From NCBI RefSeq assembly GCF_019603315.1, contig NZ_CP080649.1, positions 2,242,176-2,306,175 of the forward strand: DNA of 64,000 nucleotides. Direction: 5' to 3'. Under the pieces are notes generated by a model that was not told the DNA's origin, searched no databases, and saw nothing but the letters and a program-made list of their open reading frames with translations. Source of the stretch: Ruficoccus sp. ZRK36 (GTDB lineage Bacteria > Verrucomicrobiota > Verrucomicrobiia > Opitutales > Cerasicoccaceae). Both the position numbers and the translations under genes were made by a program. How positions within the stretch are numbered: position 1 is the stretch's first letter; the number at the start of each line of letters is the position of its first letter. Shown here piece after piece: positions 28,994 through 41,202 of this stretch.

Positions 28994-29326
28994 ATGATAA
29001 ACGCCATCTCCGAAACGGCTGCGCCGCCGCAGCCCTCCGTCTCACCGATACCCGATCCCGAAGTCCTCGAACTGCCCAAGGGTATCGAAGTGGTTCTGCG
29101 CGACTATGCCAAACGGGTCATGCGGATTTACTACTTCCGCAAAATGAAGGAAGACCGAAGCGGACCGCTCATCTTCTTTCATGCGCACACGCCGACAACG
29201 CCCTACGTGTTTGATGCCTGCTGGTGTTTCAGAACCCAGCAGACGCTCACCTCCCTGGGCGAATGCCACCTGTCCGACCGCGACAGGCTGGACAAGGTTC
29301 TCTACAGCACCGTCGTCGCGGGCTGA
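28994..29326 (+). CDS. Hypothetical protein, gene 1 of unknown four-gene cluster
   Basis: A 110-residue soluble protein; the ATG at 28994 is used instead of the in-frame start at 28949. It has a Pro-rich N-terminus (TAAPPQPSVSPIPDPEV) followed by a compact domain with an Arg/Lys/Tyr-rich stretch (YAKRVMRIYYFRKMKED) and aromatic-Cys content (FDACWCFRTQ). No family is recognised. It lies 76 bases after fecR and upstream of three unknown genes in the same direction. It could be the first gene of that cluster or the last of the fecR transcript. Confidence 0.55.
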   Translation: MINAISETAAPPQPSVSPIPDPEVLELPKGIEVVLRDYAKRVMRIYYFRKMKEDRSGPLIFFHAHTPTTPYVFDACWCFRTQQTLTSLGECHLSDRDRLDKVLYSTVVAG

Positions 29327-29433
29327 TAGGAGCCTTTGATCTGTCGATTCCTTTATTACTCCCTCCGAAGATCGCTCCCGGTCTTCCCACGTGGGTCCTG
29401 CCCGGCACCCATTTTTATGTTTCAACTACTCCC

Positions 29434-30618
29434 ATGCCATTACGTTTGCGTCGCTTCACGCGGCCAGAGATCTTGTCGTCGATACGCCCCGACCTGCTGC
29501 GCCGTTTTCTCGTACCCTATCAATCCTTTTTTCATGAGCAGGCATTTGACCTGTCCTGCCTGGATGAAAACGCCGGAGCCGAAGCACTGGCGAGTTTGTC
29601 GGGTGTCCTCCTGAATCCAGCGCAGGAATTCCCGCACGCGCTCGTGGACGCGCTATTTTGCATCCATGAGGTGGCGGTGCCGGAGAACGCCGACCTGCTG
29701 GAAATCACCGCCGCCAGCGAGAGAATAGCCCTTGAGCCGGAATCGACCCTGCTGGAGGTGGCTCTGGCAATTTGGATGGCCGTACCGGAGGCCCTGAAAT
29801 GGATGCACCGGCGACAGTCCACCACGCGCTTGCGCTCATTCGAGTATTTCAGTTCGGAGGACGGCGTATCGACCGATTTTTCCCTGAACGAAGAACGTAT
29901 CCGGCAGTTGGAGCACAGCCTGGCCCTTTACTTCGAAAAGCGTGACCGGGGATACGGCTGCCAGATTCACCATTACCCGCAGGAGCACGAGCACTGGTTC
30001 CTCATCAGTCACGGCGAACGTTACAAGCGAAAAACGACGTGGGAAAAGGGCAAGCTGGGTACGATTGGGTTTCGGCCCGAGAAATACGACCTCGTTATCT
30101 ACGACTCTCTGACGGAGGAACTGAGGATCAACGCGAAAACCGACGCCCAGCGGGAGCATTACCGCAAGCAGTTCGGGTTTTATCTCTTTGGCCGCGAAAA
30201 TCATTTCCCCGGTCGCAACAAGTACACGCTGGCCCCGTTGCTGCGGGACGGGGAAGCGGCGCTGTTTTCCGGCGACATCCCCGAGATCGAATCGGTTCGG
30301 CTGGTGGAATTGAGCTATTACCTGGATGATGACAGCCCCGAGGTACGCACGCACAAGGCCAATGATGTCTTTGCCGCGTTGGCCCGGCACCGGCAAGAGA
30401 TACCGAAGAATATAAGACCGCTGAAAGCCACTTTTCGCCTGACCTTTCGCGGGCATGACAGACCGCGAACTGTAACCATCAAGCCCTCCAACGTGGCGCT
30501 CTATACGCGAGACGGCGACGAGCGGATCATCCAGGACTGGCTGAATCGGCGGGAATTCATCATCCCGGACAAAGTAAAAGGACATGAACAGTTCGAACAT
30601 ATTCTGGAAGTCTGTTGA
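29434..30618 (+). CDS. Hypothetical protein, gene 2 of unknown four-gene cluster
   Basis: A 394-residue soluble protein. The ATG at 29434 is preferred because the 70 residues of the longer frame look non-coding. The sequence starts MPLRLRRFTRPEILSSIRP, has a charged middle (HHYPQEHEHWFLISHGERYKR) and a well-conserved-looking region FRPEKYDLVIYDSLTEELRI, then ends with a basic nucleic-acid-like domain (RLTFRGHDRPRTVTIKPSNV). No signal peptide, membrane helix or catalytic motif is recognised. It overlaps the next gene by 35 bases, so the two are translationally coupled. Confidence 0.65.
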   Translation: MPLRLRRFTRPEILSSIRPDLLRRFLVPYQSFFHEQAFDLSCLDENAGAEALASLSGVLLNPAQEFPHALVDALFCIHEVAVPENADLLEITAASERIALEPESTLLEVALAIWMAVPEALKWMHRRQSTTRLRSFEYFSSEDGVSTDFSLNEERIRQLEHSLALYFEKRDRGYGCQIHHYPQEHEHWFLISHGERYKRKTTWEKGKLGTIGFRPEKYDLVIYDSLTEELRINAKTDAQREHYRKQFGFYLFGRENHFPGRNKYTLAPLLRDGEAALFSGDIPEIESVRLVELSYYLDDDSPEVRTHKANDVFAALARHRQEIPKNIRPLKATFRLTFRGHDRPRTVTIKPSNVALYTRDGDERIIQDWLNRREFIIPDKVKGHEQFEHILEVC

Positions 30619-31621
30619 GGCCATTGGGCAAGGGGCGCGGGAGGCTGCGCTCAAGCGCTATCTGAGTGAAGCCTATGGCCTGATACGACCCTACCTGATG
30701 CCTTGCCCCAATTTGGCCTCCCAAATCGCCTGCCCGCGAACGCTGGAAGGCCACGGTTGCCAGTACCGGATCGTTGAGGAACCGGAGCCGGATGGCACCC
30801 ATGCCGCCGTCTGCGATCAGCATCATTGTCCGACAAGATTCCATACCCGCGAGGAACTGGTGCGCTATACCGTCAATCCGCAGCTCATCATTCCGGCCAT
30901 CGCCCGTTGCCTGGGCCTGCATCCGCAGATCGGCCCGATGGCGGACGACGCCTGGCAAATCGGCCATATACCGGGCTCCGCGATGATCGTGCCGGTACTG
31001 TTCACTCGGGTTAAGGAGGAAATTTCCATGAGGCGGGTGCTCCAGTCGCTCATCCTCAAAGGGAGCCGCCGCTTTGTGCTGGTGACGCCTTCGGTCCGTT
31101 ATCTCGGAAATCCCTGTTCGCCCTTGCACGCCCAGATCAACGGCCAAACCCTGCCCCTGGATGAAGTGACGGAAATGAACGGCCATGAGCCGGTCCTAAC
31201 TGTCGCGGGGCGCGTGCGCTGGAAAAAGCTCAAGGAAACCATCGGAGGGCCAGCGGTATTGGGGGTGACTTTCCCGACGCCCGCCAACGCCGCCTGGCAC
31301 GATCTCACCCTCGTGTTCAGGGACGGGCACACCGTGGTGGCGTCCATAGGCCACATCAAGGCGGCCTACACCTTTCAGGATATGGGAATGGTCAACCGGA
31401 AAAATCTGGCCCCCGACGAACAGTGGCAGTTGCTCTACCAATTTGCGGAGGAAATGGGGGTATTCACGTGGTCCAGCCAATACGCCGATCACCGCAACAA
31501 GAAACGGAAAGGACGTTTGGCGGCTCGTCTCAAAGCGTTCTTCGGCATTCCGGGCAGTCCCTTTTCATTCCGCCAGGAAGACGGAGGATGGGAGACTGTC
31601 TTCAACATCCGCATCGCCTGA
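30584..31621 (+). CDS. Hypothetical protein with Cys-rich N-terminal domain, gene 3 of cluster
   Basis: A 345-residue soluble protein. The N-terminal 85 residues contain Cys at 41, 50, 59, 77 and 82 plus His at 80 and 81 (CDQHHCPTRF), spaced like a metal-binding, probably zinc, module. The rest is beta-rich with a HAQINGQTLPLDEVTEMNG segment and a basic C-terminus (RNKKRKGRLAARLKAFFG). No family is recognised. It overlaps gene 2 and is followed 65 bases later by a small HTH protein. A DNA- or RNA-binding role is conceivable; the evidence is composition only. Confidence 0.65.
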   Translation: MNSSNIFWKSVEAIGQGAREAALKRYLSEAYGLIRPYLMPCPNLASQIACPRTLEGHGCQYRIVEEPEPDGTHAAVCDQHHCPTRFHTREELVRYTVNPQLIIPAIARCLGLHPQIGPMADDAWQIGHIPGSAMIVPVLFTRVKEEISMRRVLQSLILKGSRRFVLVTPSVRYLGNPCSPLHAQINGQTLPLDEVTEMNGHEPVLTVAGRVRWKKLKETIGGPAVLGVTFPTPANAAWHDLTLVFRDGHTVVASIGHIKAAYTFQDMGMVNRKNLAPDEQWQLLYQFAEEMGVFTWSSQYADHRNKKRKGRLAARLKAFFGIPGSPFSFRQEDGGWETVFNIRIA

Positions 31622-31686
31622 TGCTAAGGCGACAAGTTACAATTCGTTTTTTATTCAATAACGTATAAATAAGAGTGAAAGAAATC

Positions 31687-32070
31687 ATGAATATAGAGAA
31701 TGAACTGAAGCGTATCGAAAAGTCCGAGAGAAATCTGGCCATGCAGAAAAAGAAGCTGCTCGGGCTCAAGAAAAGAAAGAAGGCCAACCAAGCCAAGCTC
31801 GCCACCATCGTCAAGTTGAGCGAGTTCGATACGCCGAAGGAACTTGTCGAGGCTCTGATTGAGAAGTATGATATTCAACTGAACGGTCGCCGGGCTTTAA
31901 ACGGCCATACGTCCCCCAGCCGCCGCTCGCGGACGAAAGTCACGCCTGAGTTGCGCGACCTGATCAAGGCCAAGTTGAAAGACCAGTCGGTGAACCGGGT
32001 GTCGAAGGAACTGCAAATCAGCTACCCGGTCATCTCCAAGATCGCCAGAGGCCAGTACGATCAACTCTAG
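31687..32070 (+). CDS. Small coiled-coil/HTH DNA-binding-like protein, gene 4 of cluster
   Basis: A 127-residue basic protein; the ATG at 31687 is chosen over a GTG 12 bases upstream. An N-terminal coiled coil (about residues 1-40, ENELKRIEKSERNLAMQKKK) is followed by an Arg/Ser linker and a C-terminal helix-turn-helix (about 85-125, VTPELRDLIKAKLKDQSVNR and VSKELQISYPVISKIARGQ). The second helix has the recognition-helix look of XRE/Hin-type domains. It is probably a regulator or nucleoid-like protein of the cluster; no specific family is recognised. Confidence 0.7.
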   Translation: MNIENELKRIEKSERNLAMQKKKLLGLKKRKKANQAKLATIVKLSEFDTPKELVEALIEKYDIQLNGRRALNGHTSPSRRSRTKVTPELRDLIKAKLKDQSVNRVSKELQISYPVISKIARGQYDQL

Positions 32071-32801: not shown

Positions 32802-32999
32802 TCAGTTGTCCCCAACGATCTTAATCATCTCAGTGGAGATGAAATTACTCCGGTTGCGATTCACCGTGTCCGCCATCTGGTCGATCTTGTCGAGCAAGTG
32901 CGTCGGCAGGCTGATGGAGATTTGCGTCTTACCCGGCGCACGTCTCGTCTTATTCGACTTATTAGTACGAATTGGTTTTTTAGATCTTCTTTTATACAT
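32802..32999 (-). CDS. Ribbon-helix-helix (CopG/Arc-like) DNA-binding protein
   Basis: A 65-residue protein. A very basic N-terminal tail (YKRRSKKPIRTNKSNKTRRA) is followed by the RHH signature: beta strand TQISISLP, helix THLLDKIDQMADTV, turn NRNRS, helix NFISTEMIKIV. RHH proteins bind DNA as dimers and often act as antitoxins or plasmid/island regulators. No toxin partner is seen next to it. It lies 55 bases downstream of the integrase stop in the same orientation and could regulate integration or excision. Confidence 0.8.
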   Translation of the reverse strand: MYKRRSKKPIRTNKSNKTRRAPGKTQISISLPTHLLDKIDQMADTVNRNRSNFISTEMIKIVGDN

Positions 33000-33054: not shown

Positions 33055-34251
33055 CTATTTTATTTCTTTATTGCTTGGATATATGTCGAAGTAACGTTCG
33101 GCATTTTCCTTGGTGGCTATGCCTAGGTAATGTCGAAACATGACATCCTGATTCCGGTGGCTTATAATGAGGGCCGTTTTGCCCGGATTTCGATGCAGGG
33201 CAACATGGTATGTGACGAAGCTGTGACGAAAACAGTTTTTCGGCGGGCATTTGGGTTTGGACTCCACCGGCGGCAAGCCCTCGGCTTCCCGCTGGCGTTT
33301 TCCGCGGGCGATGTCGTCGGCCTCGATCAGCAGGCCCGCCCGTTTCAACGCCTCGCTGCGACGGTGCAGGTATTGCCGCTGGGTCATGGCAAAGGCTTCC
33401 TTCGGGGTGCGTTCCAGCCATGCCCACAGGTTGTCGGGCAAATCCTCGATCCACTGGCGGCGGCGCTTCTTCGTTTTCTCGGCGGGGGTGTGGATGCCGC
33501 GCTGTTCAAAGTCCAATTCGGCGTAGTCGAGCCGGGAGATGGCAGAGGAGCGCATCCCAGCGAACAGGCCCAGAGCCAACAGGCCGCACACCCCCGGATC
33601 AACGTGCTCGTTAGCCCGCAGGAGGCGTTCGGCTTCCTCGACGCTCAGGATGCCCGGCTCCGGGGCGATCACCGGCGGCGTGCGCACCTTGCGCACCGGG
33701 TTCTCCATCGCCCATTCCTGTTCGATCCACCATGAATAGGCTCCCTTGAGGTCACGCCGGTAGTGTCGCTTCGTTACCGCCTGATAGGGGAGGTTCAGGA
33801 CGTAGTCCGCGATCACCTGATGCGTGATTTCATGCACGTGGCGGTCGCCGCGCAGCGACGAGGAAAAATCCTCCAGATGCCGTTTGATGTGCTTGCGGTA
33901 CTCCGGGTCGCGTTCGATGCCCGCCAGGTGTTTCAGGTAGGCCGGGATGGCCTCGGACAGTTTCCGGGGCCGCAGGACCGGGCGGTTCGAGGCCAGCCAG
34001 AAACGCACGACCTCCACCGGGTCCGCCTCAGGAGCCAGCCGCGTGGCCTCCTGCCACCGGCGCATTTTGGCGGCGTCGAAGCCCAGCAGCAAGTCACGCC
34101 CGTTGCGCTCCAACTGCTCCGAGAAGTTCTCCACGAACTTCTCACGTTCGTTCTCGGTGGCGAAGAACCGGCATTTCAGCCGTCCCCCCACATACCACCG
34201 CGCTTCATATTTTTTAACTCTCTCGGGACGGTAGTGCCGTTTGATTTCCAT
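33055..34251 (-). CDS. Tyrosine recombinase / phage integrase
   Basis: A 398-residue site-specific recombinase. The N-terminal arm domain (about residues 1-70, RPERVKKYEARWYVGGRLKC) is followed by a core-binding SAM-like domain (about 95-180, AIPAYLKHLAGIERD). The catalytic domain (about 200-390) has the first Arg in LFAGMRSSAISRL, the motif RHSFVTYH, the His/Arg region ISHRNQDVMFRHYL and the nucleophile Tyr following it. It probably moves the local accessory island; the tRNA-Ser 7 kb away is a candidate attachment site. The residue spacing is intact, so it looks functional. Confidence 0.93.
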   Translation of the reverse strand: MEIKRHYRPERVKKYEARWYVGGRLKCRFFATENEREKFVENFSEQLERNGRDLLLGFDAAKMRRWQEATRLAPEADPVEVVRFWLASNRPVLRPRKLSEAIPAYLKHLAGIERDPEYRKHIKRHLEDFSSSLRGDRHVHEITHQVIADYVLNLPYQAVTKRHYRRDLKGAYSWWIEQEWAMENPVRKVRTPPVIAPEPGILSVEEAERLLRANEHVDPGVCGLLALGLFAGMRSSAISRLDYAELDFEQRGIHTPAEKTKKRRRQWIEDLPDNLWAWLERTPKEAFAMTQRQYLHRRSEALKRAGLLIEADDIARGKRQREAEGLPPVESKPKCPPKNCFRHSFVTYHVALHRNPGKTALIISHRNQDVMFRHYLGIATKENAERYFDIYPSNKEIK

Positions 34252-36810: not shown

Positions 36811-39800
36811 TTATCGCTGATTGATGTATTGTGAAAGATCGTCGGCAGGTATCACCTGTTCAGTCGGGAATTCCATTTCTTTAAAAAACTGCATTGGTAC
36901 AATTTCACTGGTTACAAGTAGAGGAGTCAGTTGGATGCTCTCTGTCGGAATATCGGTGATCCTTGAAAGAGAGTTTAAATGCTGTCTAATCCAATCGACT
37001 CGTCGAAGGTGACGACCGAGAGAATCCTTCACTTTCTTATTTCCACGAAAATCCTCAAGCCGCTGAAGCACCTCCCGAATGGTTAGTGCCGGGAGAAGGC
37101 GTTTGCATTCAGCTGCAAAAACTCTTCCAGTGGATGGGTTCCAGGCTAAAACGTCTATATCACCAAGCCCCAAGCTTTTTGAAGCCCCTATTTCGGTCAT
37201 TTCTATTTCAAATCTAGATTCAAGACCATGATCATTAAATATATTGCGAATGCGCTCTGCAAAATCATGCCCACGCCGATTCACCTCGTGCCCAAGATAT
37301 GAACGCATATTTGCAGATGAGAAAAAGCGTTCGGGGAAGTTCGCGCTTTCGATATTTCCCAACAAATAGGATAAGCTTTTCTCAATGAATGGTGCAGAAA
37401 TAACCCAAGTGCGTGGTGATATGGCTACTTGGACCAAAGGCCGAGCTAGGAGAGATAAATGTCTGCGAAAACGCCATGGATAGACATCTTCTTTCTTACA
37501 ATTGGGTGGAAGGTTCTCATCCCATGCTGGACGGATTGGAAGGGTTAGTCGCACAAGAAACGCCTCAGCCTCTGAGGTGGAGAACTCGCAGCCCTCTTGA
37601 AGAATTTTGAGCATCTCTCGCTCCTTAACTAGCCGGCATGGTACACCCGATTTAATAGCAAAATCCCTAAAGACATCCATAATCTTAAGTATTTTCTCGA
37701 TTGAAACCCCAAACTCAGGCTCAAAGGCAGCATTTAGTTTTGATATCCTACAGTCTATGGCCTTTGACTGATCGTCCGAAAATACTTCTGGTGCCTCAAA
37801 GTATTGTTCATAAGCTTTTGCGGCCTTATTTGAGTCGTTGTCTGATCGGTGTGACAAATATTTAAAGAATGTCTCGTTATAAAAACTATTATCTACATCA
37901 ATCTCACCGTTGGGATAGATGGTGATTTCTGGTTTCATAACGCCGAATGCTATGGCATCACGATGATGTGCAAGTTCTATTAATAACTTAACTTCAGAAA
38001 GTAATAGTGCATGATCTGCTCTGAAAAAAGCCTCTTTCGCATCATCTAGACAAGCGTATTGTGCCGTTTCTATTAGAATTCGGTTTGCGAGATGAGCTAT
38101 AGACTGTTGACTTCGACGATTTCGTAATACTTCCCTGGTATTGTCATGATCATTATGTAGAGCGAATACTGATCGCGTAGTCATGTGCCAAACAGTTTGA
38201 TCGCGACTAATTTCGTCGATTGCCCGAAAGCACGCTTGAACAAGATAAGTTCTATCGAATCTCTCAAGCCGCTTCTCTAGTCGCTCCCAGACCTTCTCAA
38301 CTATTTTTTGGAGAAAGGTCCTACAACTCTCTTGACCAATGATTTGATTCCCTTCAGCAGGCCGGCCGACTAAATCGGCAAGGCCAAGTGTTGCCAAGTT
38401 CGTGTCCTCGTCGGCAACGAAAAGCGGATGTGGTTTATGCTCAGCCTTATAAAAATGCTCTATTTCATGCATTTCCACTACGTGAAAGTAACGTGTGTCG
38501 TCATTTCGAACGACTTCATGAGTCATGCATGAAATGGCTTCTTCTGAATCCCGTCTCCCAGATAGATGAGCGGCTCCTCTAAAAATTGACGCTACGATTT
38601 TTTGTTCAGCGATATTTTTAGGTGCGTTAAATTGTAAGAGAAATCCCTCTGGGATTGTAAGTGTAATGCGGCTCTTTTGCTGATCTGTCTTAATTGAAAT
38701 TTCCTCTGGTTCGGAAGGTAGAGTGTTGGCATCTCCATATGACCATTGCTCAAAATTCGGCAAGACCAAGTGTACTTCGATATCCCGCCTACGGATTTCC
38801 GGCCACTCTCGCTCCACGACTGCGACCAGATGGTCTGTCCATTGGAGCACGCAATCCCAAAGCTGATATAGCAGATCTCGTAGTTCTGGACGATCGGGGC
38901 GATATTCTGCAACAACCCACCACACGGCGCAACCACGCTTTGTACAACCAACCAAGCGTTCTTGAGCCTCATTAATCGCACCATAAATCGGGGCGTGGTT
39001 ATCTTCTAGGAAAAAGGTTCGTGAATTCTGTCTGACGATTCGGGAAAAACTATCGCTACCTGGCCTTTCAATACAGTGCTCGTCAAGCTTTTGGGCTTCC
39101 AATACACGAATTAATTGAGAATGGGCGCAGTCGATATAGATGATTTTACGAATTTCTTGAATGTCCAATTGTTTAGGCACTAAACGGAATTCGGAATTCC
39201 TCCAGAATGAAAACAGATTGAGCAATCCTGCTGGGTTTACTAGTTCCACACCAAGGCTCTCGCAATGGTCTTTATGTTTTCCGAGTTTCCATAATTGTAC
39301 CGCAGTGCATCCAGCACCCGTTAAGGCCATCCAATCCCGTAAGGTAGCGCTATAAACCCTCCATTTCGGACTCCAATGATTCCACTTTAGTTCACACGAC
39401 CTTCCATAGCCTGCGATGCAAATGAGAACCATTCCTCCGTTGAAGTGAGGAAGTTTTTCGAGCTTATTAGCACAAGACTGTATGTAATTTTGGAATTTTT
39501 CTTGCTCTACCTTTGAGAATGTATCGACTCCAGAAAAATTGTTTATCGCACCTTGTATGGATGGTGTATATGTTAGCATGACAACCGGCATTCCAACGTC
39601 AAACAGACCAAAACATGGCATCAAATGTGGCGTTCCCTCCTCCGCCTCTGGTGGAGTGAACTCAATTGGATTAATTCCAAGTCGGCTAGCAACGTCATTA
39701 ACGAAAACATCTGCACTTTCAGCCCGATAGAATATATCAGCAAATCCTGCTATAAATTTTAGCCGTTCAACCATATAGCGAACTACTGTCCTAGAAAGCG

Positions 39801-40626
39801 TACTAGGCTCAATAACCAAAATGCCTTTCTCCACCCGAAGAAGCGGATGCCGTTCCAATGTCGAGGCCCACAATGTCTCTAGATTAATGTTTGTAAGCAG
39901 AGGTTTGCTTAAAATGAAATCGTCAAGGAGGGCTTCCGGAGCCCCTAATTCCTTGAGGTCTTGATGAGTAAAGATAATGCTTTTGATTCTTGACTCCAAA
40001 ACCTTCCTACTCGGGATTATAAGCCTCTGCGCATGATTTCCGCTTCCCTCATCGTAGCGTTGCAAGCCTGCTTTCTCTGCTAACGCATCTGCTATTTTGA
40101 GTATGGCTATGACTCTATCTATCGTCTCTTGAAATGTTGGAGCATCGGGTTTCTTCCCATAAAAATCAAGGAGCCGTTCTACCAGAAAGGCTCCGTCACT
40201 GAAATTTCCTTGGAATATTCGAAAACTTCCATACCTAGAGTTGGCACACCCAATGAACTGATCTTCTACCGGATCTTCCAAGTGCGCCGCAGTAGAACTT
40301 GCCATAAGCCTAACCCATTCGGATAAGTCTTTGAACTTTGGCATTGCGCTGCCACGACAGCATGTGACGACTAGATGCGTAAGTATTTCAATACGTATGG
40401 TATTTGCTTGAAGCTCAGGAATTAGTCCGAGCGCACCAACCAATCGTGCTGCTGCGGGAAGAGAGAAGCGCTGAAGCTTCATGACTAACTTGGGATGCGT
40501 TTCAATTATTTGCGATATCGGAATCATACGATCTTTTAGTCTAGAATCTCCCTTAATAGTACTAATACATAAACGCCACAAGTTTCTTGATTTAAACGAG
40601 TTTGATTGGCGAATGACAGGGTTCAC
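36811..40626 (-). CDS. Large unknown protein with C-terminal PD-(D/E)XK-like nuclease domain
   Basis: A protein of up to 1271 residues; the start may be the ATG at 40626 or at 40527. The C-terminal domain (about residues 1110-1200) contains GHDFAERIRNIFNDHGL, then GDIDVLAWNP...FAAECKRLLP with Asp 1158, Glu 1173 and Lys 1175, the D-x14-E-x-K pattern of PD-(D/E)XK nucleases as in Mrr/NERD-like domains. The N-terminal 1100 residues are mainly helical with no Walker motif, signal peptide or transmembrane helix. It is AT-rich and lies in an integrase-bearing island next to a tRNA. This looks like an anti-phage or DNA-processing protein, but the N-terminal function is unknown. Confidence 0.75.
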   Translation of the reverse strand: MNPVIRQSNSFKSRNLWRLCISTIKGDSRLKDRMIPISQIIETHPKLVMKLQRFSLPAAARLVGALGLIPELQANTIRIEILTHLVVTCCRGSAMPKFKDLSEWVRLMASSTAAHLEDPVEDQFIGCANSRYGSFRIFQGNFSDGAFLVERLLDFYGKKPDAPTFQETIDRVIAILKIADALAEKAGLQRYDEGSGNHAQRLIIPSRKVLESRIKSIIFTHQDLKELGAPEALLDDFILSKPLLTNINLETLWASTLERHPLLRVEKGILVIEPSTLSRTVVRYMVERLKFIAGFADIFYRAESADVFVNDVASRLGINPIEFTPPEAEEGTPHLMPCFGLFDVGMPVVMLTYTPSIQGAINNFSGVDTFSKVEQEKFQNYIQSCANKLEKLPHFNGGMVLICIAGYGRSCELKWNHWSPKWRVYSATLRDWMALTGAGCTAVQLWKLGKHKDHCESLGVELVNPAGLLNLFSFWRNSEFRLVPKQLDIQEIRKIIYIDCAHSQLIRVLEAQKLDEHCIERPGSDSFSRIVRQNSRTFFLEDNHAPIYGAINEAQERLVGCTKRGCAVWWVVAEYRPDRPELRDLLYQLWDCVLQWTDHLVAVVEREWPEIRRRDIEVHLVLPNFEQWSYGDANTLPSEPEEISIKTDQQKSRITLTIPEGFLLQFNAPKNIAEQKIVASIFRGAAHLSGRRDSEEAISCMTHEVVRNDDTRYFHVVEMHEIEHFYKAEHKPHPLFVADEDTNLATLGLADLVGRPAEGNQIIGQESCRTFLQKIVEKVWERLEKRLERFDRTYLVQACFRAIDEISRDQTVWHMTTRSVFALHNDHDNTREVLRNRRSQQSIAHLANRILIETAQYACLDDAKEAFFRADHALLLSEVKLLIELAHHRDAIAFGVMKPEITIYPNGEIDVDNSFYNETFFKYLSHRSDNDSNKAAKAYEQYFEAPEVFSDDQSKAIDCRISKLNAAFEPEFGVSIEKILKIMDVFRDFAIKSGVPCRLVKEREMLKILQEGCEFSTSEAEAFLVRLTLPIRPAWDENLPPNCKKEDVYPWRFRRHLSLLARPLVQVAISPRTWVISAPFIEKSLSYLLGNIESANFPERFFSSANMRSYLGHEVNRRGHDFAERIRNIFNDHGLESRFEIEMTEIGASKSLGLGDIDVLAWNPSTGRVFAAECKRLLPALTIREVLQRLEDFRGNKKVKDSLGRHLRRVDWIRQHLNSLSRITDIPTESIQLTPLLVTSEIVPMQFFKEMEFPTEQVIPADDLSQYINQR

Positions 40627-41110: not shown

Positions 41111-41202
<92 letters not shown>

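Follow-up and report, generated by a model that had tools for sequence, protein, structure and literature searches.

A distant Upx-family protein of Verrucomicrobiota with a C-terminal PD-(D/E)XK nuclease domain, probably carried on an island at tRNA-Ser

The question raised by this locus of Ruficoccus sp. ZRK36 was whether a very long open frame ending in a nuclease-like pattern encodes an undescribed anti-phage system, as had been proposed from the sequence alone, or a protein of a known kind. The window (the whole stretch of 64,000 nucleotides that was analysed) carries at 36811–40626 (minus strand) a frame of 1271 codons that opens with GTG at 40626, in agreement with the sequence-only reading; its GC content is 44% versus ~60% in the flanking DNA, and the AT-rich character noted in that reading was thereby confirmed. 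The motifs LGLGDIDVLAWNP and FAAECK were both found in the 1271-residue protein at the positions claimed, with D1158, E1173 and K1175 within them; the stretch of the protein that carries these three residues is LGLGDIDVLAWNPSTGRVFAAECKRL. Similarity to relatives begins near residues 35–37, where an ATG is present (M34, 40527); since it begins only near residue 35, comparison of the sequences indicates that this ATG may be the start codon instead of GTG 40626. Scans for promoters and terminators yielded less than the shuffled controls did, and in Rfam the tRNA alone was matched.

The protein was compared with profile and structure databases. PADLOC Upx (PDLC02221) matched residues 31–1248 over profile positions 24–1250 (E 1.9e-144); NCBIfam Upx_antiphage (NF042954, 'anti-phage protein Upx') matched residues 35–1249 over profile positions 10–1224 (E 9.6e-163, 543 bits); the sole PDB relative by sequence was chain A of 9wuf (1272 aa, E 4.4e-89), and a wider profile agreed. 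This chain is named 'Restriction endonuclease' in the PDB; the title of the structure is 'Cryo-EM structure of Upx'. Pfam gave no match for the window protein, and this silence explains the earlier impression of an orphan; the full-length match to Upx in all three sources refutes that description and speaks against the statement that no known domain is present. Nor is the system undescribed: Upx has entries in both PADLOC and NCBIfam, and its structure has been solved (9wuf); the window copy is a divergent addition. The first description of Upx reportedly came from the tests of defence systems by Gao et al. 2020.

The score of the window protein (543 bits) lies far below the NF042954 equivalog cut-off of 1900 bits, which was passed by the copies of Xenorhabdus (2186 bits) and P. 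fluorescens (2114 bits). Further clear relatives fell under the same cut-off (1688, 1538, 934, 567 and 451 bits); the value therefore marks close orthologues within a continuum. Judged by these scores, the window protein belongs to the wider Upx family as a remote relative and falls outside the narrow NF042954 equivalog set. It shares with Upx (NF042954, PDLC02221, 9wuf) a homology of ~1,240 residues, the fold and the C-terminal PD-(D/E)XK site, and the lack of a recognised defence partner in the window is consistent with a single-gene layout; it differs from canonical Upx in being only 22.7% identical to a Salmonella sequence, apparently that of 9wuf, in its sub-equivalog score and in its place on a separate verrucomicrobial branch. 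The reach of Upx is thus extended into Verrucomicrobiota, the NCBI model recognising Upx only near the tested proteins.

Models of the two halves were built by AlphaFold2 with 49 aligned sequences (pLDDT 91.1 for residues 35–690; 92.5 for residues 600–1271). In Foldseek, 9wuf was the single significant PDB match of each half (E 2e-39 and 4e-30). VIA-align against 9wuf gave Z 39.2, rmsd 3.3, 642 residues aligned for the N-terminal half and Z 36.2, rmsd 5.3, 618 residues aligned for the C-terminal half; the next-best matches of either half reached only near Z 9. The N-terminal half (residues 35–690; 38557–40524, minus strand), presumed to be the sensor or regulator, follows the solved Upx fold over these 642 residues, which excludes the new fold that had been suggested for it.

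Two sub-regions of this body gave weaker matches in VIA-align and are reported as leads only. Residues 293–473 (39208–39750, minus strand) matched FokI, BspD6I, EcoT38I, McrC and RPB5-like chains (Z 6–8), i.e. a PD-(D/E)XK restriction-enzyme-like fold, and may be a pseudo-nuclease; the E-x-K motif is missing from the middle region of the window protein and of the aligned relatives, except for the divergent copy of a Bosea plasmid (EAK), where it possibly stands by chance. Residues 523–690 (38557–39060, minus strand) matched a piece of M1 peptidases (gluzincin-like; Z up to 8.6 over ~100–111 residues), and no HExxH was found there in the alignment. The restriction-enzyme-like and the peptidase-like rows agree in kind, yet such Z values can be due to chance; taken from predicted models, they suggest that the sensor body of Upx may have been assembled from dead enzyme folds. 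A role of the middle region as a second nuclease was also considered and was reduced to a lead, E-x-K being absent and a profile–profile comparison with the C-terminal nuclease giving no support.

The C-terminal part (residues 1100–1271; 36814–37329, minus strand) is a Mrr/NERD-like PD-(D/E)XK nuclease domain. Pfam on the C-terminal halves of the relatives gave Mrr_cat in 10/49 (best 7.6e-06) and NERD in 5/49; in the window protein no Mrr_cat or NERD domain was found above the Pfam gathering score. After 9wuf, the last ~155 residues matched Can2, Cdn1, Card1, Holliday junction resolvases (Hjc), McrC and BspD6I (Z 7–9). D1158 falls on one predicted strand and E1173/K1175 on the following one, in the model the placement expected for a PD-(D/E)XK fold. 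With the Mrr_cat and NERD matches of the relatives and the nuclease folds, the nuclease that had been proposed from the motifs was upheld. The Mrr_cat and NERD families (PF04471, PF08378) possess a PD-(D/E)XK core of like kind but are without the Upx body, and the likeness is confined to the last ~170 residues of Upx; similarly, the CRISPR ancillary nucleases Can2, Cdn1 and Card1 superpose on the C-terminal domain of the window protein, whereas no CARF domain was recognised by Pfam in Upx N-terminal halves, the likeness being that of the nuclease domain alone.

For the invariant residues an alignment of 74 near-full-length or long sequences was used; it takes in the Bosea and Deinococcus plasmid copies and a Salmonella fragment coinciding with 9wuf, and one sequence (G125/L017) is counted twice. 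Among the matches listed, the following residues were identical in 74/74: in the C-terminal region F1122, G1155, D1158, E1173, K1175, H1206 and R1209; in the body W570, N671, E853, R1032, D1047, P1050, W1051 and R1055. H715 was invariant in the 49-sequence alignment A5. Spanning about eleven phyla, the 74-sequence alignment sets family-invariant residues apart from variable ones; the eight body residues and H715 are targets for mutagenesis of infection sensing.

On the ground of full-length Upx homology, the solved Upx fold and the intact invariant PD-(D/E)XK site, the window protein is read as a diverged Upx homologue of the Verrucomicrobiota, working in defence as a nuclease made of a single protein (probability roughly 0.8). 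In the mechanism proposed, the ~1,100-residue body would hold the C-terminal nuclease inactive and would recognise a sign of phage infection; once triggered, the Mrr/NERD-like nuclease would cut DNA, phage DNA first, and the cutting would stop phage replication. With ~23% identity to canonical Upx and 543 versus 1900 bits, the trigger or the target could have changed. In the collection of papers searched, none on the mechanism of Upx or on 9wuf was found.

The same architecture could also serve an abortive-infection effector, in which the activated nuclease would kill the cell by degrading the nucleic acid of host and phage alike; this is regarded as possible, on balance unlikely. The window holds no partner by which self DNA would be marked, and abortive infection is a frequent mode of action of single-protein systems that have a large sensing part; on the other side, no sign of toxicity or of an antitoxin was seen. 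In one survey (PMC10855318) Upx is assigned, by validation or by prediction, to the class that degrades nucleic acids and not to the abortive class; the assignment may be a predicted one.

Relatives of the Upx-family protein were collected by a scan of one genome per species (84,980 species; at least 80 loci); among the matches listed they come from at least about eleven phyla and are patchily distributed. In the tree, the window copy forms a fully supported clade with three sequences of Verrucomicrobiota (L017, L018 and L019; Opitutia/Coraliomargarita/Puniceicoccaceae), the closest among the matches listed (full-length identity 34–36%); the canonical Salmonella/Xenorhabdus/Photorhabdus/Pseudomonas group lies far away. 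An Upx relative was present in 5/384 genomes of the class sample and in 0/3 other genomes of the genus; this patchy occurrence fits horizontal spread. Phages searched by tblastn gave no Upx match, and viral contigs searched with a four-sequence alignment gave none; a first genome-contig scan started from one sequence and detected no relative, its peptide patterns being too specific.

Three further Upx loci were noted. At L006:1441–5180 (G236) the relative is split into adjacent frames of 979 and 266 aa, and where the former stops the latter begins, possibly a two-gene version or a frameshift. On a plasmid of Deinococcus sp. QL22 (L015:25–7551) a distant relative of 1231 aa stands directly after a protein of >1,100 aa on the same strand, in which GEAGIGKTELA, a P-loop-like motif, lies close to the start. 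On a plasmid of Bosea vestrisii (L012:7905–11615) a very divergent relative, with E-A-K in its middle region, is found near a caspase-like/DEAD helicase and two TIR proteins.

In the three verrucomicrobial relatives (L017:1493–14254, L018:1206–16062, L019:309–17557) the order was hsdR-hsdM-hsdS-upx-AAA_15 ATPase-~320-aa protein (3/3; two of the three upx copies are near-identical, so that two independent observations of the cassette are counted). The hsdS frame reaches or overlaps the start of upx, the ~320-aa protein has no Pfam match, and in L019 an extra Schlafen/AlbA-like protein stands between upx and the ATPase gene. One more downstream protein is common to L018 and L019. The window copy differs in having neither hsdR-hsdM-hsdS upstream nor the AAA_15 ATPase and ~320-aa protein, and adjoins an integrase and tRNA-Ser instead; tblastn at E 1e-6 gave no match to the hsdR/hsdM/hsdS cassette in the window, and two HsdM_N matches were found elsewhere in the genome. 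The restriction-linked cassette of the closest relatives, among the matches listed, is a testable lead.

Another explanation is that of a type IV-like or modification-dependent restriction enzyme, of which the body would read modified DNA and the C-terminal nuclease would cut it. The position of upx directly behind hsdRMS in these three loci speaks in its favour, as do the nuclease domain of Mrr_cat/NERD kind, found in such enzymes, and the PDB label of 9wuf_A; it is nevertheless considered distinctly unlikely, Pfam having recognised none of the known base-reading domains, SRA and YTH-like included, in the N-terminal halves of 49 relatives, and no restriction–modification genes standing beside the window copy. 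Taken jointly, the observations would allow a broader scheme, speculative and quite improbable as a whole: the verrucomicrobial Upx branch would be a partner of type I restriction–modification in the cassette described, perhaps a second line when restriction fails; the window copy would be a stand-alone derivative; and the body would consist of dead PD-(D/E)XK-like and dead gluzincin-peptidase-like domains turned sensors.

The proposed defence role was further examined through the neighbourhoods of 46 further relatives. The neighbours (138 proteins, 69 in each of two sets) matched 250 and 215 PADLOC families (E <= 1e-10), the best matches including type I RM, Gabija, Avs3a, SIR2, HerA and PD-Lambda; 66 control proteins from arbitrary places in six genomes of verrucomicrobial orders matched 4. 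PADLOC families overlap, so that these figures are not protein counts, and the control genomes differ from the relatives' own; despite both, the contrast of 250 and 215 versus 4 is large. The relatives thus stand in defence-rich neighbourhoods, and the anti-phage role is supported by inference from these and from the Upx family. That the gene is a decayed or housekeeping nuclease without a defence role, a passenger on a mobile island, is highly improbable: it stands alone, with no other recognised defence genes or partners among the neighbouring frames tested, but its frame is intact across 1271 codons with every family-invariant residue kept, its distribution is patchy (5/384 class genomes; 0/3 congeners), and its relatives lie among defence genes.

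To the left of the Upx-family gene stand some small frames in which no domain was recognised, followed by a tyrosine recombinase (33055–34251, minus strand; partial NCBIfam XerC/XerD matches); to the right is tRNA-Ser(GGA) (41111–41200, minus strand; ARAGORN), the probable insertion site. The recombinase and the tRNA had both been named in the sequence-only reading; the RHH protein named with them was found neither by Pfam nor by NCBIfam in nine frames. To the right of tRNA-Ser are nuoB and other genes presumably of NADH dehydrogenase. The nuoB–tRNA-Ser block is conserved in the genus, the flank 3' of the tRNA (left) being different in three relatives; on the left side of tRNA-Ser the genomes of the genus have genes that are unrelated. 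Low GC, the integrase, the tRNA, absence from three congeners and the variable flank 3' of the tRNA indicate that the Upx-family gene is probably carried by an integrase-borne island situated at tRNA-Ser. No clean empty insertion site was found in the same-genus genomes; elsewhere in the window, matches to the 3' end of tRNA-Ser did not exceed 13 bases, and the left end of the island is therefore not fixed. An integrase near a tmRNA gene of a congener shares 57% identity with the recombinase, and the DNA just upstream is near-identical. In one published survey Upx was met almost only in a single hotspot of the Pseudomonas PAGI-1 island (PMC12629846). As far as the window is concerned, the outcome is ordinary: a defence gene of a known kind, probably on an island.

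Further to the left, an overlapping hypothetical pair (464 + 345 aa; 29224–31621, plus strand) was observed; no convincing Pfam family was found for it, and several copies, 61–67% identical, are present in congeners. At 31675–32070 a 131-aa protein with a possible helix-turn-helix end is encoded; its copies (52–65% identical) occur at several same-genus sites, sometimes beside the 464/345-aa pair. About 90 bases at 32851–32943 are repeated elsewhere in the same genome and in congeners at 73–77% identity.
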